Assembly: GCA_008802785.1 (NCBI GenBank)
Contig: VUYT01000011.1
Coordinates: 434,001-498,000, forward strand
Direction of reading: 5' to 3'
Length of the DNA: 64,000 nucleotides
DNA from: Symmetrospora coprosmae
Taxonomy: Eukaryota > Basidiomycota > Cystobasidiomycetes > Symmetrosporaceae
Below the pieces are notes generated by a model. It ran no database searches. It worked only from the letters and a program-made list of their open reading frames with translations, and was not told the origin of the DNA. Every line of letters begins with the position of its first letter. Positions within the stretch are counted from its first letter, which is position 1. Shown here in pieces: positions 41,170 through 52,367 of this stretch. The position numbers and the translations under genes were made by a program.

Positions 41170-41862
41170 CTAGAAAGTTGCGCGCTTCTTGTATGCGTAC
41201 TCCTCAAGATCCAGAGCTTCAGACCAAGGCTTGTCGATCTGGCCTAGGTGACCATGTGGCGGATTGACAGGAGGAGTAGGAGATTGGCGTTGGACGCTGT
41301 TCGCCTGTCGCAGGATGTCTTTGAGGGAGAAAGACTTGTTCTCACGCCCGCTCGGGTAGCTACTGTCCCCGGGCACGGATGGCGAATCGCATCGTGACCC
41401 TCTAGCAGCTGACGAGGTATTCCTCGATCGTTCTCGAGCTGAGCCGGAAGGGGCGCCTGCATATAGATCGTATTTGGCAGCCTGCGAGTCGACATAGATA
41501 GGAGCCGTGAAGGAGCGCCCAGATCGCTGAAGTGCAGCTCGGCGCTCGAGTTCTCGCTGCTGGGTTATCGCACTCAGCTGAGGCGCCCGCACATCTTCGA
41601 GCTTGGGTACGGGTTTAAGCTCGAAGTCGATCGGCGAAGTTCTCGCTGTGTACCCGGAGGCGGACCCGTTCTTCCTTCCCCTTGGCTTGTAGATCACCGG
41701 AGCCCCTTTAATCATCTCGACAAGCGGCGGGGGTGGTCTGGGCTTGGATGCAGCTGGCTGAGGACGTGGTGGGCTAGCCGGGGCTGACGGTCGCTTGCGA
41801 AGGAGAGAGACGATTGCAGGCCGTTGGGGCGGTCCCCGCCCGGGTCTGGATGGGCTCGCCAT
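41170..41862 (-). CDS. Pro/Arg-rich protein (unrecognised)
   Basis: Function unknown. Open frame of 230 aa from the ATG at 41862 (MASPSRPGRGPPQRPAIVSL); the frame is open upstream to about 42270 and could start earlier or be reached by splicing. Blocks: LLRKRPSAPASPPRP, KGAPVIYKPRGRKNG, FELKPVPKLEDVRAPQLSA, ENKSFSLKDILRQANS, and a C-terminus EALDLEEYAYKKRATF. Highly basic, disordered, no membrane segment. It lies just downstream of G1 on the same strand, and I cannot exclude that it is a missed 3' part of G1, though G1 has its own in-frame stop. The acidic-aromatic tail is the most structured part. Confidence 0.4.
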   Translation of the reverse strand: MASPSRPGRGPPQRPAIVSLLRKRPSAPASPPRPQPAASKPRPPPPLVEMIKGAPVIYKPRGRKNGSASGYTARTSPIDFELKPVPKLEDVRAPQLSAITQQRELERRAALQRSGRSFTAPIYVDSQAAKYDLYAGAPSGSARERSRNTSSAARGSRCDSPSVPGDSSYPSGRENKSFSLKDILRQANSVQRQSPTPPVNPPHGHLGQIDKPWSEALDLEEYAYKKRATF

Positions 41863-42462
41863 GTCGCTCCTGGCTGGAGGTTGAGTTGGAAGTCTTATCG
41901 CCGAGCGCTGGCGTGCTGGGGGCTCTCGTTGATGCGAAAGTTCAGCAGCGGTGTCGAAAGTTATACGTGAGTCGCCCGCTAAGCTGGTATGCGGTGATTC
42001 CTGATATTGGAAGTGAGGTGCGGAAGCAACAGAGAGCTTGTCCCGAACCGCCGCTTTTATACTTTTATACTGTAGATTGCCCATATTGAGGCAGTGCAAG
42101 GGGGCAGAGCGCATCATGGCAATTCTGCCCGGGTCAAAGGTGGAATCCTGGCCGGACTGGTCGAGGTTGCCTGAAGTCTGCAGGACGGGAGTCAGCTGCT
42201 TCGTGTCTTGCAGAGGATCTGCACGTGTGCCGAGTGTAGAAGGTGAGAGGAATCTAGCGGTCTGAAACACGGGCTGACAGCAGAGGCCTCGCCATGCGTT
42301 GAACCGGTGTACGACGTGTCAAACAAGTACTGGCAGACGCTGCAAAGATTCGAGACGCGCCAAACGCAAATCAGTCACATTCAAGTCCGATCCAAGCAGG
42401 ACGGCCACGAAACGGGGTCCCAATCCTAGGTTTGGGGGAAGTACGGACATGGGAATCGTACA
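41863..42462. other. Between G1 3' end and the 41170 gene
   Basis: 600 bp. The minus-strand frame of the 41170 gene stays open to about 42270. No start or splice choice is compelling. Confidence 0.35.
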
Positions 42463-44576
42463 TCAACGAGCTCTATCAGGGTCTCGCATTGGCTTCTTTC
42501 CTTTCCGAGTTGCGGGTGGCGGCTGCTGTGGTCCCTGCGGCGATCTTGAGCTGCGTGTGCGGGCAGCGGCCTGGTTTGTCGTTGGCACAGCAGGAGCAGC
42601 CACAGCGGGTGCTGCTGGAACGATACCCGGAGCTTCTTGCCAGATTGCATTGGACTCGGGCTCTCGCGCGTGTGTCATGCCGGTCCCCCATCTGAAAGAG
42701 CGCTCTTGCGTTGACACCATAGACGACCGATTTGTGCCATATCGCACGGCCATGACTCGCGCCCGCTGACCAAATAAAGTCGCTTCAACGAGAATGTCGT
42801 ATTGCGTACCCGGCGGAAGCTCTCCTGCTTGATACCGTTTCAGGACTGAAGCATCGAGCTCTGACCAAAGCTGTACGGACCACTCGAGCTTGACGCCTCG
42901 TACACTGTCGCTCTTGGTCAGAGACATGACCGTAAAGACGGAACGGCTCAATGAATTTTTGACGAAGCGAAGCTCGACCTGCGGGCTCAAGACGTCAGCA
43001 GGCATATAAGGGCAAGCACATATTGCCTGTGATTTACTGGATGCCAGCTAGCGAATTGCGTCCGACTATCTCGGTGTGGTGTGCTCGGTTGACCATTATC
43101 GTTGAATCCTAACCAGGGACGTTGATGCGACTCGAGGGATGGCGGCTGAGGGTACTTGTAAAACAAGGACGTTCTGCACTCCGCCGAAGATTGTCTCCGA
43201 ACGACGCTGAGAGGAGATGACCTGTCCTGCCGCGGAACCGTCCCTTGCTGCGAGGGTCCTGCATTGTGAGCAGCTGTCGATAATCCTTGAGAAGCCGCGC
43301 CGGCCACATTACGGTTCGGGGGAGGGACGCTTTTGCCAGCATTGTGCTTGGACCCTCCAGCCCTGGCTGGGTCGATGAAACGCGAGGGAACTTGATTCCA
43401 TGCAGAAGACTGGCCGCCGATTTGCTTTCGTGGCGCAGTCTGGCTGTCATCCTTCCATCGAAGCCAATCGGCCTGGCAATGGTTGTCCACACGGATCTGG
43501 TATGCCACGGCAGAGCCGGTAGTCTGACGAGAGCCGGACTGCTTCAGGAGGTGCTTTTCCAGAATCGCGTACACGTCGACATTTGGCTCCGCACGCGCGA
43601 ACGTCCAATTCAGCTTTACTCCATGAAGAGTGGTCGTTCGCGTGAGGGACATCTCCACTATCTGCCTCTGGTTGGCATCCTTCGCGAATCGGACATCCAC
43701 CTAGCCGGAAGGGAGTCAAATTCAGAGAATGTCCCCTTCAAGCTCTGCAAGGCCGCTTGCTTACATTGTGCCATCTTGTTGTGCGATTGTATGCGCGTGT
43801 GCCACCCGCCACAGGGTCACATGGTGGCTCGCCAGCTCTTGTGGGCGGCAGTTGAGGATATCTAGTAAAGGCCGGAGATTCTTTGAGAGGGGTACGTTGC
43901 TTAGCAAGGACTAGTGATGCCTCGGATACCGCTCTTCGCAATTGTCCAGAGCTCGAGCCGTGGTACTCGTGGGAGGTCGACGAGTGTGAGGATCCCTGTG
44001 AGCTTGAACGGTGGGATGGGGGACGTGATACTGGGACCGGTCGTGATACTGTCCCCGAGGGAGGCTTGTTGATCCAAGACCAGGAGATTCCCGGGCCCGG
44101 TGGTCGTATTTGTAGCCACCTCACATACTTAGTGGGATAGCGACCCTTTGGCGTAAGTTCCGCGATAAGTGCGCCGACTGGCTCTATGTGCAAGGACCCA
44201 TTCTGGTATACTGGGATCTTCAAGATCGCCGTCCATACGCTGGGACCGAACTTGTCCCAATCTTTCATTTTATTCTTGAGGACCAGACCGAGTTCGTCCA
44301 TATGTCTCGATATGTGGTGGAAGGCGTCCGGTCCGCCGATTTGTTCGACAAGTAGTGGCCGGAAGTCATATTCGGGGTCGCGTTTACATTGGAACTGATG
44401 CGGAAGAGTGGTATATGATCAATGAGTTCGCTGACTAGCTGCTGCATAGGCGGACCTACGACAGCGTTGTAAAGGGGCCGTTGCCCGCCTCGAACGACGT
44501 CATCGGTAGGCAGCCGCTCCGGGGGACCTGGGCGACGATCAGATGTTGGAGGAGTGGTCTTTCGCTTTTGAGCCAT
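42463..44576 (-). CDS. Modular family protein G1 (unrecognised; repeated RG-x-x-L-x-W modules)
   Basis: Function unknown; first of three related genes. Exons 44576-44460, 44394-43765, 43700-43038 and 42978-42463 all join in phase 0 (641 aa). The 39-residue first exon is basic (MAQKRKTTPPTSDRR), like a nuclear signal. Exon 2 carries an N-terminal module (RDPEYDFRPLLVEQIGG) ending in a Ser-rich linker. Exons 3 and 4 each open with a related module: VDVRFAKDANQRQIVEMSL with LHGVKLNWTFA, and VELRFVKNSLSRSVFTVMSL with VRGVKLEWSVQ, each followed by a basic/Pro linker. The pattern looks like a beta-strand repeat. No signal peptide, membrane helix or catalytic motif. Related to G2 (47548) and G3 (50337). 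Confidence 0.7.
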
Positions 44577-45021
44577 TACAGATGGACTACGATGGGAGCC
44601 ACTCTTGAGGTCCGCTGGAGTTGGGGCAAGACGTGGTGGTGGTGCAAGTGGGATGGTAAGCTTGGTGCCGATGGTAGCAGAGTCAAGAGGAGAATGCCCC
44701 GGAGGACATGGCGAGCGGTGCTCGGACGCGGAGGTCTGAGTGGGAAAGCTTCGACTGTGAAAGGCGATCTTCGAGTGTCTTATTCAATGGTCCCCGTGCG
44801 CTGGCAGACACGGAGCAGCCGCTGGCAGTCTTGCAGGTGTTCAGACTTTCCGCGTGACTCGTGTGAGTACGTCAGTTGCTCGGCGCCAGATATCTGACCG
44901 GTGCTCTGAGCGAGTCAAAGGGGATCTGTGGTATCCGGAGCTTGCCGTGTATGCTCCTGGATCAGCCCGCATCATCTACAAACTCCTCATCAGCGCTGCA
45001 GCATGCAGCTAGGTCATCATC
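44577..45021. other. Intergenic, 5' side of G1
   Basis: 445 bp upstream of G1 and downstream of the DUF4112 gene. No specific element seen. Confidence 0.5.
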
Positions 45022-46106
45022 CTAGTACGCCTTCTTCCTGCTGTTCTTCGCGCTCGCGCTGGCCGCCCCTGCCGCTTGCTGCGTCTTGCCTGCAACGCGT
45101 GCCAGGCATGCGATGATCCACCTCCAGAGCATCTGTGCCGACTCGCCCGACCATCCTCCGACCTGCTCGATCTCCACGCGCTTTGCGCCTCCGAGCTTCC
45201 ATCCGCGCGTATCGGAGCCGACGCCGGAGGGGCTGCCAAAGATGTTGCTGAAGAAGGACGAGCTCGTGTGCGAGGTGCCCGACGAGCTGTAGAAGGAATC
45301 GGCAGAAGGCGCGGCGTCTTTGGGCCAGAAAGCGCCGGAGGGCGGGATCCGGACGGCATAGTGCGTGGCGGGCGCTGTGAGGCCGGAGGCGGACGCCTGC
45401 GGTGCTGGCGGGGTGTTGCTCAAGAGATGGTCCTCGAGGATGGCCAGATTGCGCAGATTGCTCTTGAATGCCAGATCGACGAGATCGCCCACGATGGGGA
45501 TGATTCCGCTGCACACGAGCGAGCATGGTTCAGCTTGCATGCTCTCACTAGCGGGTGTGGCAGGCAGACGCACACGACCACGTCAATGATGACATTCACG
45601 AGCATCTTCCAGAGCGAGGAGGCAGGCAGCCCGAACTGCATGCATAGCAGGACCACGTAGAGACCCAGGACAAACCCGACGAGGTCGCCTGGGAGCGTGG
45701 CAATACATTGTCAGCTATATAGCCCGCCTAGGTCCGGTAGATCGTTGCGAAGGCGCCCACCTGCGATAGGGATGAGAGTGCCGATAACGGCGTCAATACC
45801 AAAGCTGAATGGCAGCTTCTCGGACAGTCCTGGGATCCGGATCATGTCGGACGCCGCGTCGAGCCAGAAGCAGATGGTCCGGATGTGGTAGTACAGGCGC
45901 TGCGCTTCGGCGTCGCTCTTAGCTGGAGAGGACAATTGGCCTGTTAGCTATTGCTCTCTGTGCTCGTGCAGTGCAGCAGACGCACGCTTTCTGGGCAATG
46001 CAAAGGGCTGGGCGACGCTCTCCTTGATTGTCCGCGTTGCGCTCTTGAGGTCCGGGATGCCGCGCCCTCCTGCAGAAGCGGATGCATTGCCTGTGCGTCG
46101 GGACAT
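45022..46106 (-). CDS. DUF4112 membrane protein
   Basis: Small integral membrane protein of the DUF4112 family; molecular function unknown. Exons 46106-45986, 45922-45761, 45688-45574 and 45508-45022 close in frame (294 aa). Family blocks: FSFGIDAVIGTLIPIAGGDL, VGFVLGLYVVLLCMQFGLPA, MLVNVIIDVVVGIIPIVGDL and FKSNLRNLAILEDHL, with the expected paired hydrophobic segments. The basic N-terminus (GIPDLKSATRTIKESVAQPF) precedes the domain. The C-terminal 120 residues are Ser/Gly-rich with a Trp-rich helix (MLWRWIIACLARVAG). It shares a 385-bp intergenic region with the divergent HAD gene. Confidence 0.85.
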
Positions 46107-46491
46107 GTCGTATATGGTGCTGCTATACTGTTTTGTGGTGAGAGAGCGAGAGCAGGAGATGCTCTGGCGGAAGTAGTGACGCCGTTCATCCTGCTGCAGT
46201 CGCGCGCCCTGATCGAGTCGGTGTCACTCCTGCCCGAGAAGCTGCGAGAGCTGCAGCCAGCGCCCCGCGAAGACCGTCATAGTCGAGATTGCCCATGTAC
46301 TGAACAGCTATGCCTGCTCGCACTCGCCTGCCCATTTACCTTCTGGCGTTCTCGTCGCATCAACATACTGCCGCTGTCTTGCCACCCCCTATCCTATCCT
46401 TGAGCTCGAGTGACGTGCCTGTCGCCAGGCAGGCGAGCCGCGCTCTCTCCTTCTCTGCCAGACGCCCGCACACCGCCAGCATCCCCTCACC
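46107..46491. promoter_or_regulatory. Bidirectional promoter region, DUF4112/HAD
   Basis: 385 bp between divergent start codons. No clear TATA box. The HAD side has a C-rich leader before its ATG (context CACCATGG). Confidence 0.45.
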
Positions 46492-47494
46492 ATGGTCAAG
46501 AAGATTGCAGCATTCGACATCTTTGGCACCTGCTTCGGTGCGCGCGTGGCTGGCCCGGCCCGGCGCGCATTGGCGTCCCGGCGCTAATGAATCTCCACGA
46601 TGGCTCGCTTGCTTGCAGGCTTCAGCAATGTCATCGAGGTCATCGAGAAAGAATTTGGTGCCGAGATCAAGGAAGCTGGAACTACTCCTGCGCACGTAAT
46701 GATGAGCTGGTGGGTCTTTCCATCCAGGAGCTTGGGTGGAGAGGCGATTGCGAACTCACCCATCGCATCCGTGTGAATGGCCCCGCAGGTTCTACGCGAC
46801 TCAGCGCGACTTCACCTACCTCAGCATCAGCGGCAGCTACACGGCCATGCCCAAAGTGTTTGCCGCGACCCTGCCACGCGCCCTTGCCATCGCCCTCGAT
46901 CCGGCACCAGACTATCCCTCCGTCTCGCGCGTCCGCTCCTTCCCCAAAGACAAGATGGACCGCGTCCTCGCCGAGCTCAAGCAGCTCAAGGGACGCCCGG
47001 GACTCGTCGATGCCTTTTCGACGCTCTGGGACGCAGGCTTCGAGATCTACGCAGTCTCCAACGGCGCAAAGGAGGGGACAAAGGCGCTACTCGCCACGCT
47101 CGACGACAGCAACAGCAACAGGAAGGACGTGTTCGTCAACGGCGAGTTCGACAAGTACATTGTCAGCTGCGACGAGGTGCAAAAGGCAAAGCCGAGTCCG
47201 GAGATTGTGAGCTTTTGCGAGTCTGCACTCGCGACCTGGGCTTGCCAGCTGACCCGCCTGTGCACACAGTACGCACGCACGCTAGAACGAGCGGGAGCAG
47301 ATCCAAGGCAAGGGGACGAGTGCTGGTTCATCGCAGCGCACTCTTGGGACCTGCTTCCCGCCCGCAATGCCGGCTTCAAGACCGCCTACGTCGACTTTGA
47401 GGAGATCTACCCATGCGAGGAGATCTACGGAAAGCCAGACGTGTTCGAGGACGGACTGGCCAAAGCAGCAAAGAAGATTGTGGGCGAGATCTAA
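46492..47494 (+). CDS. HAD-superfamily hydrolase, (S)-2-haloacid dehalogenase-like
   Basis: Probably a type II haloacid-dehalogenase-like hydrolase; the substrate is unknown. Exons 46492-46537, 46619-46709, 46789-47206 and 47270-47494 close in frame (259 aa). Motif I KIAAFDIFGTCF has the nucleophilic Asp; motif II is IYAVSNGAKEG; motif III Lys is in QKAKPSPEI; motif IV is CWFIAAHSWDLLPARNAGF, followed by TAYVDFEE. The usual VDWR stretch after motif I is replaced by GFSNVIEVI at the first splice junction, so the cap-proximal loop differs from bacterial dehalogenases. Length is normal for the family; cytosolic. Convergent with G2, only 53 bp apart. Confidence 0.88.
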
Positions 47495-47547
47495 TGCGAT
47501 GTATTTGCAGTGCATTGTGCAACACGTCTACAAAGGCCTGCATGGTA

Positions 47548-49996
47548 TCATGTTTGGAAATGTCCCAGTTCGTTTTGAGCTTCGGGCGCGCCTGAATGCC
47601 ATGACTTCGGAGCGGCGCAGATGTCGAGCGCTCCATCCAGAGCTGCTATGGGTTTCTCCAGGCGCATTTGCGTGATCACTGAAGTCCGCTGGTCTACTAG
47701 GCACCACGCGGGCCGCGATGCCTGCGCGTCCTTTTGATCCCTGTCCCAATACGCCTTCACGACCTTGTCCTTCACCTTTGGCGCGAGCTTCAGTTTATAT
47801 GTCTTGTCTTCTATTGACGTGCCGTCAGCTTGCTTGATCGCGTAACGGTACTGCGGTCTTCCTTTTGAGGGAATGGCATATTTGGACATGTCCACCTGGT
47901 AGGGAGAAAGGCGTGAGAGTACGGTCAGCGGATGAGCCTAGCCGTATCATCAGATGAATCGCACCTTTAGCCAATAATCATCCTGACTGCCAGAAGAGCT
48001 ACCGATCGACTGTCCGGCTTGTCTCGGGGCCGCTCGAGCTGCTGGATCCGAATGGGCTGGATCCCGCATCGCGATGTAAAGCACTTCCGCCCCCTGCACT
48101 TTGTACCAAGCATCGTACGTTGGCTGGAATATCCCGCGGGCATTGTATCTGATTCGGTTGGTGACTGTCACCTTCACCGAGTCAGTGAGCGCATATTGAT
48201 TCTCAACGAGCGCGCCGTCGGCGAGTATGTAAGACCAGCTAGTTGTGGTTCTGCTCTTATCGTAGGCGGCTACCTTTACCTCTCTGCGGATAGCGCCCTA
48301 CGTGGCCGCAATGTCCGCGTTAGCCACGGCCTCCTATATCACCCCCGGCGGCTACCGCTGGGGGCGCTCCGGCGTCTCTCACCTGAATCCAGAACGCTTC
48401 ACTGGCACTGGCAGGAGGCGGTGCAGGGGATGCCGACTGACGAGGCGAAACACCCGGCGAGGTCGGCTTGGTGAACTGCACACTGGTTGCCTGCGTAAGG
48501 GCCGAGTCCAAGCGCAGATACACGGGGACATCAGTCGTTGCTTGTTTGAATACCGCAAGTCTCGCCATGTGGTTCGTCATAATCTTCGCTTGAGCCGGGT
48601 AGTTCCAGATCTTTTTCAGTCGTACAGCCTCCGCCACGGCTGGTCTAGACCAAGTGACGGTGATGTGGCCCGTAGCCAGGTTGGACGACATGGCCCCTTG
48701 GGCCCAGAAACTTATGGCTGGAGCTGGCGAAGGTGCCAGAGCAGGACTTGCGCGCGCGGAGCGAGAATCTGGGCTGTGAGGGACCGAGGCGACTTTCTGC
48801 TTTCCCTTATCCTGGACCTGTATAATTGCCGGAGACGAGGCAGGTCCGCGAGCTGGACTGGCGCTGACTGGCCCTCGCGCTACAGGCGGCGTCAGGGAAA
48901 TGACCTGCGACGGTGCAGTCTTCCACTGGCTTCCGGGGCCGAACTGGTATCTCGTCCAATCCACTCGCCTGTTCTCGCCCTCCTCGACCCTGATCTGGTA
49001 CAGCAGCGGTCTCGTTTCGTCGGCGGGCATGATCGTTTGGCGTCGCTTGAGGAGAGTGGTTTGGAGGGCATCCCAGACATGAGGAAGCCACACGAGCATC
49101 TGCCCTCGGATCGTGTTGTTGTCCTGGAGCGACATCTGCAGCAGTGCCGCGCGCTCCTCAGTTGCGAAGCGAACTTCAATCTATATTCCGAGAGATCGCT
49201 CAGCCGGCTTGGCAGGTCAGAGCGCAAGCAGCGCATACTCACAAAGTGCCATCCGGTCTTCCGCCCCTTCTTGCTTGGATCCGCGCCTCTGTCCGTGTAC
49301 GGAGACTCGCCTCGATGTAGTGGGGGCGGCTGGGGCATCACGCAGAAGCCCTGGGAGGAACCGCGCGGTTGGGCAGGCGAGCTACTCCGGCCTCGCGGCG
49401 GCGCTCCAAGTGCTTGGCTCTGAAGCAGCGGTGATTTCTGGCGCGGAGCGGGGGTGCCACCTCGAGAAAGGGCAGGGGTGACTCCTCTCGAAGGGACAGG
49501 CGATGGAGTAGCAGCGTGGGCCTCGGCTGCTCGGACTTTCGGGAGCGGCACGCGCATGACCAGCCTGGTTCCGGGTCCAACAGGAGGCCACGTTGGCCAG
49601 AAGGTACACATCATCAGTCCATTGCTCTGGACATCCACTCTGCGATCTTGCCTGAGCTGATGAACAACTGTGCCGACGGCAGCCCCTGCTGGCCCGTCGC
49701 GCTGTAGCTTTGTGGCTGCTGCGCGCAGGAGGCTGTCTGGTATCTTGAAGGCTAGGGGTGGTGTGAAAGAATAGTCGTAGGTGCGATCTGGTCGCTGTAC
49801 AAATCGCATCTGACCACGAGGGCAATCACGTTAGGTAGGTACTCATTCCCGGACCGCCGGTCTTACGCACCTCGAGGGTAGTATCAGGAAGCCCCGGAGT
49901 TCTGTGGATCGGTGGCGGCGGTGGTATCTGTACTCCTTGTGTTCCTGCGTCAGGAGGCGGCGATGCCGAACCGGAAGAACGCGGACGCTTCGACAT
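47548..49996 (-). CDS. Modular family protein G2 (unrecognised)
   Basis: Function unknown. Exons 49996-49871, 49809-49243, 49180-48383, 48297-47965 and 47895-47548 all join in phase 0 (723 aa). Starts MSKRPRSSGSASPPPDAG, basic then Pro-rich like G1 and G3. Exon 2 has the N-terminal module (MRFVQRPDRTYDYSFTPP). Exon 3 opens with IEVRFATEERAALLQMSL and IRGQMLVWLPHV, then YQIRVEEGENRRVDWTRY, and ends in AFWIQ. Exon 4 opens with GAIRREVKVAAYDKSR and ends in DDYWLK. Exon 5 (VDMSKYAIPSKGRP) ends the protein. G3 has the same order and the same exon borders (FWVQ|GA and WLK|). No catalytic or membrane motif; Ser/Pro/Arg linkers between modules. Confidence 0.75.
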
Positions 49997-50336
49997 GATG
50001 GTTGCGCGTCGTTTCAGCGTCGTCAGGTGAGCGAGATGACTTTGGCAGAGGAGGTCTTTGGTGCTGCTGGAATGATCTGCAGCAAGCAGAGGCAAGGGCC
50101 GTCATGTATGGAGATTCTGGTCTCATAGACAGCTATGCTGGTCATCCCAATCAAGGGCAGGAAGGCTGTGTCCCGAGCAAGACTGAGCATCAATGGGAAT
50201 GCAGCGTATGCCATGAGGCAGCTGACAGCTGATCGGCTGTCGAGGCAGTTCCTCTTTGCGGTGCAGTTCAGGTTGCGCAGTAGTGAGGACAAAGGAGTGC
50301 TGTGGCGACGGAACAATACCGGACGATCATCCATGT
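49997..50336. other. Intergenic, 5' side of G2 and 3' side of G3
   Basis: 340 bp separating tandem genes G2 and G3. No specific element recognised. Confidence 0.5.
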
Positions 50337-52367
50337 TCAGCGAAAACTACGCACAAGTTTAGGCTCAAACCACTTAATGTTGGCCTTGGGAAACCGAGTC
50401 TTGGGGTCTCGATGCGACCACCACGTTACATCCGGCTTGCCTTGCTCTCTCTCCTTCACGAGGAGCCAGACGTCCGCCGAATATGCAGTTGTTGTGCCAT
50501 GCTGTTTGGTAATCGCGTCTACCATCGATTTGCGAATCGGAGTGGGGAAATTCCCCACATAATCCTCGACGTGGGCGACCCACCCATCCGTCGTGGTTTT
50601 GGCGAAGGTATTGCGAAAAGTCGAGCCGCGCTTCGCCTTCACCCTCTCCAGGGTCCACTGTTCGTGGCGTGAAGCACCATCAGCGGTCACGTCGCGACGA
50701 TATAGCAGGTGCAGGGCCTACAAGAACCTACTTTCAGCCATTTGCCGTCACTGGCTCGCAACTCATCCTCATTCATCTTGTGCGCGTTATAGAAAGAGTA
50801 AGACGCGGCGTAGGTGCGCTCACTGTTGACGCCAATCCAGACATTCAAGACTGCCTCCGTCCCGGGCTGATCGAGTCGGGCCTTGGCTTCAGTCTGCATA
50901 CTGCGCTGAAGATCCGGCCAGTTCTGAAGCGTCCCGTTTGCGATGGCCGTTCTCAGAGCGCTTTCGCCGATAGCCAACATAAGTGACTGCGAAGCAGGAT
51001 CCTTCTTCCAAGCACCCTGCGAGAGGACAGCACGATGTGATTTGTCGGACCAGGAAGGGTTCAGCTCGACCAATTTTAGAACTCGTGTCTACCAGGCGAG
51101 ACTCCCAAGCGCACCTGCACCCAGAATTTCTCGCCTTTGCGCAATTTGACAGCCTGTGGCGCTCTCGACGGGGGCGTGACACTTCTTCCAGATGGTGGAT
51201 CAAACTGAAAACGCGACACATGTGTGATATTGCCGTTGACGTGCAGCCAGAGAGGGAACTGGAATGATCCCTTCTTAAATCTGTCTTCAATTTGAGGCTT
51301 CATGGCAGCTTTTATGCCTTCCAGATTGATGATCTGGCCCTTTCGAATTGCCTCGAGCATCGACTGCGGATACTCTGCCTGGATGTATTGTTGATTGTCC
51401 GGTTTCACACCACGCCTCACAGTGACCTCGGCCCAGAAGTCGGCTCCGGATGCAGATGCATCACCGGAAACCAACGGTCCGCGATGAAGCCTAGTAGGGG
51501 AGGGACGGCGTATTGAAGAGTCTCGGCTGGGCTCTAGGCTTGCAGCGGTTACTCGGGGGATGGGAGAGCTGGGCACCATAACCCATCGATCGCCCCGCCA
51601 GTAGCGAAGCTGGTCGACATAGCGAGGTTTGGAGTTCGCGACACGGACTTCGTATGCCATTCGCGAGCTCGGCTTCGCGCTCCCAATTCCCGATCTGCGC
51701 TGCTTGTTGAGCTCGCTTTCGATCTTGAGGCGGCTGTCTGGCGGCCATTCAAGGCGCAGACCTCGTAAAGTGGTATTCCCGGTGAAAGACAGTGTCGCAT
51801 ACTCCAAGCCATCCTCCTTGACAACGAAGGAGACGTTGATCTGGGAGAAAGACTTGTCGTCAGCGCATGCATCAAAGGCACATTTGACGGTTCCTGTCTG
51901 CTGACCATGTGCCACGAGAAGCCTGACACGCCGCTGTCACGACCGACACCTCTGTCTGGAGCCTCGCCAGGTGGTATACCGGGCGGTTGCGGATCATACA
52001 CGGGCCGGGCCAGCAGGCGATGCCTCTCATCATTGGCAGGGGCCGCGGATGGCGATACTTTCCGTGTGTTGGAAGACGGCTGTAATGGGCCGGGTGACGG
52101 GCTTTTCGAGACCCGCACAAGAGCACTGGAAGACTCCAGAGTGGGTTTGAGTGCGGGAGAGTCGGACCCTGGACCTTTTGGTCTAGCGACTTGCGAGCCA
52201 GGCGTTCCTCCTGATTGCGACTGGGATGATCCAGGAACCACAGGACTCCCTGCGCGGTATGGAGATTTGCAACTGTTCGCGCCGGCAGGCCTCTTCGCGA
52301 GAGGTGGAGAGCCGCCTCTGTTTGGAGATGTCGAGCGAGAAGAACGGGAGCGTTTCGCAGGCAACAT
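50337..52367 (-). CDS. Modular family protein G3 (unrecognised)
   Basis: Function unknown. Exons 52367-51906, 51840-51115, 51016-50732 and 50657-50337 all join in phase 0 (597 aa). Starts MLPAKRSRSSRSTSPNRGG; the 154-residue first exon is Ser/Pro/Arg-rich and lacks the N-terminal module of G1/G2. Exon 2 opens with INVSFVVKEDGLEYATLSF and LRGLRLEWPPDS, then YEVRVANSKPRYVDQLRYW, a second module (DFWAEVTVRRGV, ending LWLHVNGNITHVSRFQF), and ends KFWVQ. Exon 3 opens with GAWKKDPASQSL, contains VLNVWIGVNSERTYAASYSF and ends GKWLK. Exon 4 (WTLERVKAKRGSTF, DVWLLVKEREQ) ends the protein. The start could also lie in the open frame up to 52922. Confidence 0.72.

Follow-up and report, generated by a model that had tools for sequence, protein, structure and literature searches.

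The 64,000-nucleotide window analyzed here (C2:434001-498000; C2 is contig VUYT01000011.1 of Symmetrospora coprosmae, in an assembly of 20.05 Mb and 77 contigs) contains three minus-strand genes, G1, G2, and G3, that encode proteins built from repeated modules of about 90 residues. Each gene was modelled anew on the minus strand with its GT-AG junctions set explicitly, and none of the three spliced models contains an internal stop. The predicted genes, exons, and modules are the following, in positions of the window, with a slash marking the intron.

G1: 42463..44576, minus strand, 641 amino acids, 3 introns (exons 44576-44460, 44394-43765, 43700-43038, and 42978-42463).
G1 exon 2, N-terminal domain and linker: 43765..44394, minus strand; likeness to other N domains not clear.
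A module G1a: 43431..43700, minus strand, entered after WHN/.
A module G1b: 42718..42978, minus strand, entered after WHP/.
G2: 47548..49996, minus strand, 723 amino acids, 4 introns (exons 49996-49871, 49809-49243, 49180-48383, 48297-47965, and 47895-47548).
G2 exon 2, N-terminal domain and linker: 49243..49809, minus strand; likeness to other N domains not clear.
A module G2a: 48905..49180, minus strand, entered after WHF/.
B module G2B: 48452..48715, minus strand, intron-less FWAQ start; against G3B, z = 5.6 and 0 of 500 shuffles match.
G2 exon 4, B-type module G2C: 47965..48297, minus strand, entered after FWIQ/; against G3C, z = 3.7 and 0 of 500 shuffles match.
G2 exon 5, module G2D: 47548..47895, minus strand, entered after YWLK/; likeness to G3D weak (z = 2.65, 6 of 500 shuffles).
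G3: 50337..52367, minus strand, 597 amino acids, 3 introns (exons 52367-51906, 51840-51115, 51016-50732, and 50657-50337).
A module G3a: 51565..51840, minus strand, entered after WHM/.
B module G3B: 51184..51444, minus strand, intron-less FWAE start.
G3 exon 3, B-type module G3C: 50732..51016, minus strand, entered after FWVQ/.
G3 exon 4, module G3D: 50337..50657, minus strand, entered after KWLK/.

The rebuilt models bear out much of what a first-pass annotation of this DNA had described. The protein starts MAQKRK (44576), MSKRPR (49996), and MLPAKR (52367) were kept, the exon starts that it gave for four modules (43700, 42978, 49180, and 51840) are exact to the base, each with a motif-bearing module, and the ten introns (GT-AG, 59 to 98 nucleotides) are all phase 0 in the rebuilt genes, as it had claimed. 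Eight of the ten come exactly after a W-x-x triplet (WHN/V, WHP/V, WHF/I, WIQ/G, WLK/V, WHM/I, WVQ/G, and WLK/W), the exceptions being the first intron of G1 (NAV/) and the first intron of G2 (TLE/). The tryptophan at position -3 in these eight places the intron just within the module start, outside the linker. A rule of one exon for one module is not universal, since both G2 exon 3 and G3 exon 2 contain two modules.

The genome was searched with G2 and then with module H2a, the counts of module matches being lower bounds, and two further clusters of the family were found, both on the contig of the window.

Cluster H, genes H1-H3: C2 about 228.9-234.5 kb, minus strand, found by the genome search with G2 and H2a.
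Cluster J, genes J1-J2: C2 about 609.8-615.7 kb, plus strand, found by the genome search, near the contig end at 615826.

Some queries (G1a and the N domains) match only themselves in these searches. The reading frames of H3 (640 amino acids), J1 (690 amino acids), and J2 (745 amino acids), with four introns each, are open throughout. H2 as modelled has 270 amino acids and is without an N domain. H1 and H2 are described as they stand, their frames not mended: the first module of H1 is broken across two frames (C2 about 233.53-233.77 kb) and a TAG at 232844-232846 lies between the two genes, which may reflect a degenerate copy, an assembly error, or a missed intron. Both clusters carry repeated flanking DNA. 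At H, C2:228382-228692 and C2:231451-231758 are 79.5% identical over 317 nucleotides; the repeat is a piece of the plus-strand gene next to H3, which looks to us like an inositol-phosphatase gene, found again between H2 and H3. By its sequence this is the remnant of a tandem segmental duplication. At J, the regions upstream of J1 and J2 share 170 nucleotides at 80.6% (C2:609469-609638 and C2:612832-612999). Flanking repeats of about 80% identity thus indicate tandem duplication of these regions, and they are much younger than the divergence of the modules (37-53% DNA identity).

To take a census of introns, eight hand-built models (G1-G3 and the H and J genes) were considered together. All 26 introns, of 59 to 98 nucleotides, are phase 0, and tryptophan stands at -3 in 22 of them. 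The domain layout follows the exon layout, with 17/17 A-type junctions at a module start; the exceptions are the intron-less FWA starts of G2B and G3B, at the same position in both genes. Tryptophan is found at 16 of the 17 A-module junctions (the exception is FHK/I in J1) and at 6/9 of the others (WIQ, WLK, WVQ, WLK, WQP, and WLP, with misses at NAV, TLE, and FW/ in H3). At a tryptophan content of 2.75%, the binomial p is 6e-31 for 22/26 and 3e-8 for the six of nine non-A junctions, values that give a scale only because the module copies are related and not independent. Alignment on both sides pins only the 17 A-type junctions. In our reading, competing splice sites exist at G1 intron 1, G3 introns 2 and 3, H3 intron 1, and J1 introns 1 and 4, where the frame-keeping site was taken, so that phase 0 in 26/26 is partly a matter of choice at several non-A junctions. 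The one neighboring gene checked, which starts at 46492, has a phase 1 and a phase 2 intron (introns 1 and 2), which argues that phase 0 is not merely a local habit.

An alignment of the 16 intact A modules shows the shared motifs L-S-L, T-L-R-G-W-x-L-x-W, Q-I-R-V, and R-x-V, with W28 as the one invariant column. With a profile of the 12 modules from H and J, all three window genes are recovered, G1 with two domains, at full-sequence E-values of 8.8e-11 (G1), 1.4e-8 (G2), and 3.3e-6 (G3), whereas the best of 3000 shuffled copies reaches only E 0.0057. The first-pass view of a modular family with repeated, symmetrical phase-0 units is therefore upheld, with descent as the relation between them. 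A second module type, B, occupies the C-terminal parts of G2 and G3: in each of the pairs G2B-G3B, G3B-G3C, G2B-G3C, and G2C-G3C, compared as strings that took in the W-x-x start, none of 500 shuffles matches. The nonsynonymous divergence (dN) is below the synonymous (dS) in all 16 module pairs examined, and dS lies beyond estimate in 11 of them; on this evidence the modules are old and under protein-level constraint.

A tree of the 16 A modules has 13 inner branches. The two that are well supported each join neighboring modules within one gene, J1a with J1b (99/98) and J2a with J2b (100/98), and in cluster J exon duplication is thereby seen directly; these within-gene events are recent enough to show in the tree. 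Among the weaker branches, the four A modules of G1-G3 come together at 86/88, and G1b pairs with G2a (80/84) and not with G1a, so the tree shows no clear within-gene copy in G1. The proposal that the family grew by exon duplication consequently stands for J1 and J2 and is less clear for G1-G3, the genes for which it was made. G2 and G3 appear to be copies of a single layout, and clusters H and G point to gene duplication as well. We think that these genes probably represent a family of modular fungal proteins, in three clusters on one contig, that has grown by exon and whole-gene duplication. Nearly every module starts with W-x-x, right after which a short phase-0 intron interrupts it, and an exon thus runs from the remainder of one module through the linker to the third residue of the next module. 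Exons of this 0-0 kind could be duplicated or lost, presumably by recombination within introns, without breaking the frame or the module, and growth would mix within-gene exon duplication with duplication of whole genes.

Several observations weigh against this interpretation. The gene models were built by hand from DNA, with some junctions picked to keep the frame. Support is good in only 2 of the 13 branches, several end branches are long, and the program warns that the joining of H1b and H3c may be false. The A and B profiles have no detectable similarity to each other, and the D modules are alike at a weak level only. No module match, and hence no sign of shuffling into unrelated proteins, was found outside the three C2 clusters in the module searches of this genome, whose counts are lower bounds. 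AlphaFold models, built on four window sequences each, are of low confidence (predicted local distance difference test, pLDDT, 62.9 for A and 55.1 for B) and matched nothing convincingly.

The same pattern could result from gene duplication alone, an ancestral multi-exon gene having been copied whole while its within-gene modules are old and were never exon-copied in this lineage. The duplicated flanking DNA at H and J is in keeping with this, as are the common layout and B and C modules of G2 and G3 and the grouping by position of the last modules H1b, H2b, and H3c (87/87, a weaker branch with a long-branch warning), but the modules of J1 and of J2 are sisters within their genes, and we regard this explanation as unlikely. 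A reading of some or all of the copies as pseudogenes, with the pattern left as a relic, is very unlikely: the split first module of H1 near 233.6 kb and the TAG that separates H1 from H2 would fit, but no break interrupts the frames of G1-G3, H3, J1, or J2, and dN is below dS. Parallel intron gain, with independent insertion at one module site that favors it, seems hardly credible. Introns do prefer some sequence contexts, according to passages of PMC3488318, but the junction codons differ (WHN, WHP, WHF, WIQ, WLK, WQP, and others), which leaves no shared DNA target, and an equal residue offset in 22/26 introns is simpler by descent.

As for the nature of the modules, no exon or module scanned gave a Pfam match over the cut-off, in agreement with the first-pass label of unrecognised; judged by sequence, the family is so far unnamed within the libraries searched. 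One lead would make the A modules divergent PA14-like beta domains, such as those of GH31 alpha-xylosidases, and the proteins binders of glycans or of similar ligands. The top PDB match of the 16-module profile is Xyl31A residues 324-360 (E 0.063), relatives of this stretch bear PA14 by Pfam, and PF07691 is the sole Pfam match of module H2a (E 0.042). In a profile-profile comparison with PA14 pieces from 80 bacterial GH31 genes, the score of 23.9 exceeded all 200 column shuffles, the highest of which gave 18.3 (pairwise p 5.6e-4, not a search E-value, as the test was picked after the match), while flanking GH31 segments gave p 0.61 and 0.28. The A modules share with GH31-associated PA14 of the Xyl31A type a common succession of conserved positions across about 57 columns and a W-rich stretch after L-x-x-W. 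They differ in that the match of H2a, the only one among 16 modules, reaches 14.1 bits against a Pfam gathering cut-off of 24 (with the W-H-x prefix, 13.8 bits and one of eight modules), and in that the N-terminal part of PA14 is not seen and the context is not that of a secreted enzyme, the basic N-termini being without sign of secretion. By subset, p was 2.6e-4 for H, 0.054 for J, and 0.018 for G, the last in a different register; a 10-module profile had another protein as its top PDB match (E 0.18); and the low-confidence AlphaFold model contains a long helix. A PA14 scan of the genome matched none of the three clusters. Its one match lies at C22:724816-725022 and, at 19.6 bits, falls short of the cut-off (24). 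On balance we consider a PA14 origin quite improbable.

The proteins have a common layout: a basic Ser/Pro stretch at the start, then, in most members, an N-terminal domain, and finally two to four modules. The shared basic start had been noticed for G1-G3 and holds more widely, all six complete models having 3 to 7 K/R within the first 30 residues, together with Ser/Pro; these N-termini look unlike signal peptides. The six proteins contain nine copies of the motif PQPP, whereas 2000 shuffles give 0.2 on average and 3 at most; it stands mostly ahead of W-H-x, in disordered Ser/Pro linkers, and often about 25-50 residues upstream of the module that follows. We infer that the proteins are multivalent binding scaffolds with PQPP as a ligand or docking site, in which case the number of modules would set the valency, and that they are probably nuclear.

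Between G1 and G2 lies the gene with mixed intron phases, encoding a haloacid dehalogenase-like (HAD) protein (window 46492-47494). A placement of the source in Ustilaginomycotina could not be confirmed: among the 13 proteins scored with the HAD exon, the only named organism is Cystobasidium minutum (46%), a member of the Pucciniomycotina. Relatives up to 99% identical were seen on short metagenome contigs, which suggests that public metagenomes contain the source fungus or one of its near relatives. Just past the end of G1, positions 41170-42318 of the window hold a minus-strand open frame of 382 codons, rich in Pro, Ser, and Arg.

The family can be compared with the exon-shuffled proteins of animals, using criteria taken from passages of PMC8001218, in which the shuffled domain types found are class 1-1 and the restriction of exon shuffling to Metazoa is posed as a question. 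As in those proteins (class 1-1 Ig, FN3, and similar modules), the exon layout tracks the modules, one phase prevails at the joints, and repeats are in tandem. The flanking introns share one phase in 26/26 cases, some junctions being frame-chosen, and modules were copied within genes in J1 and J2. Phase 1 on both sides, the mark of the metazoan class, is absent, the fungal modules being phase 0. Further differences are the fungal host, an intron inside the module start and not at its border, very short introns, and confinement to one family. We propose tentatively that the A modules, the B modules, and the N-terminal domain of J1/J2 share an interchangeable joint of W-x-x and a phase-0 intron, a class 0-0 counterpart in a fungus to animal class 1-1 shuffling; if so, exons of different kinds could be added, lost, and combined through it. 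Fungal exon duplication of class 0-0 departs from the class 1-1 picture of animals given in those passages of PMC8001218, and a 0-0 family with its intron fixed to one module residue would be a compact exception to the view, drawn from the same passages, that such shuffling is class 1-1 and belongs to Metazoa only.

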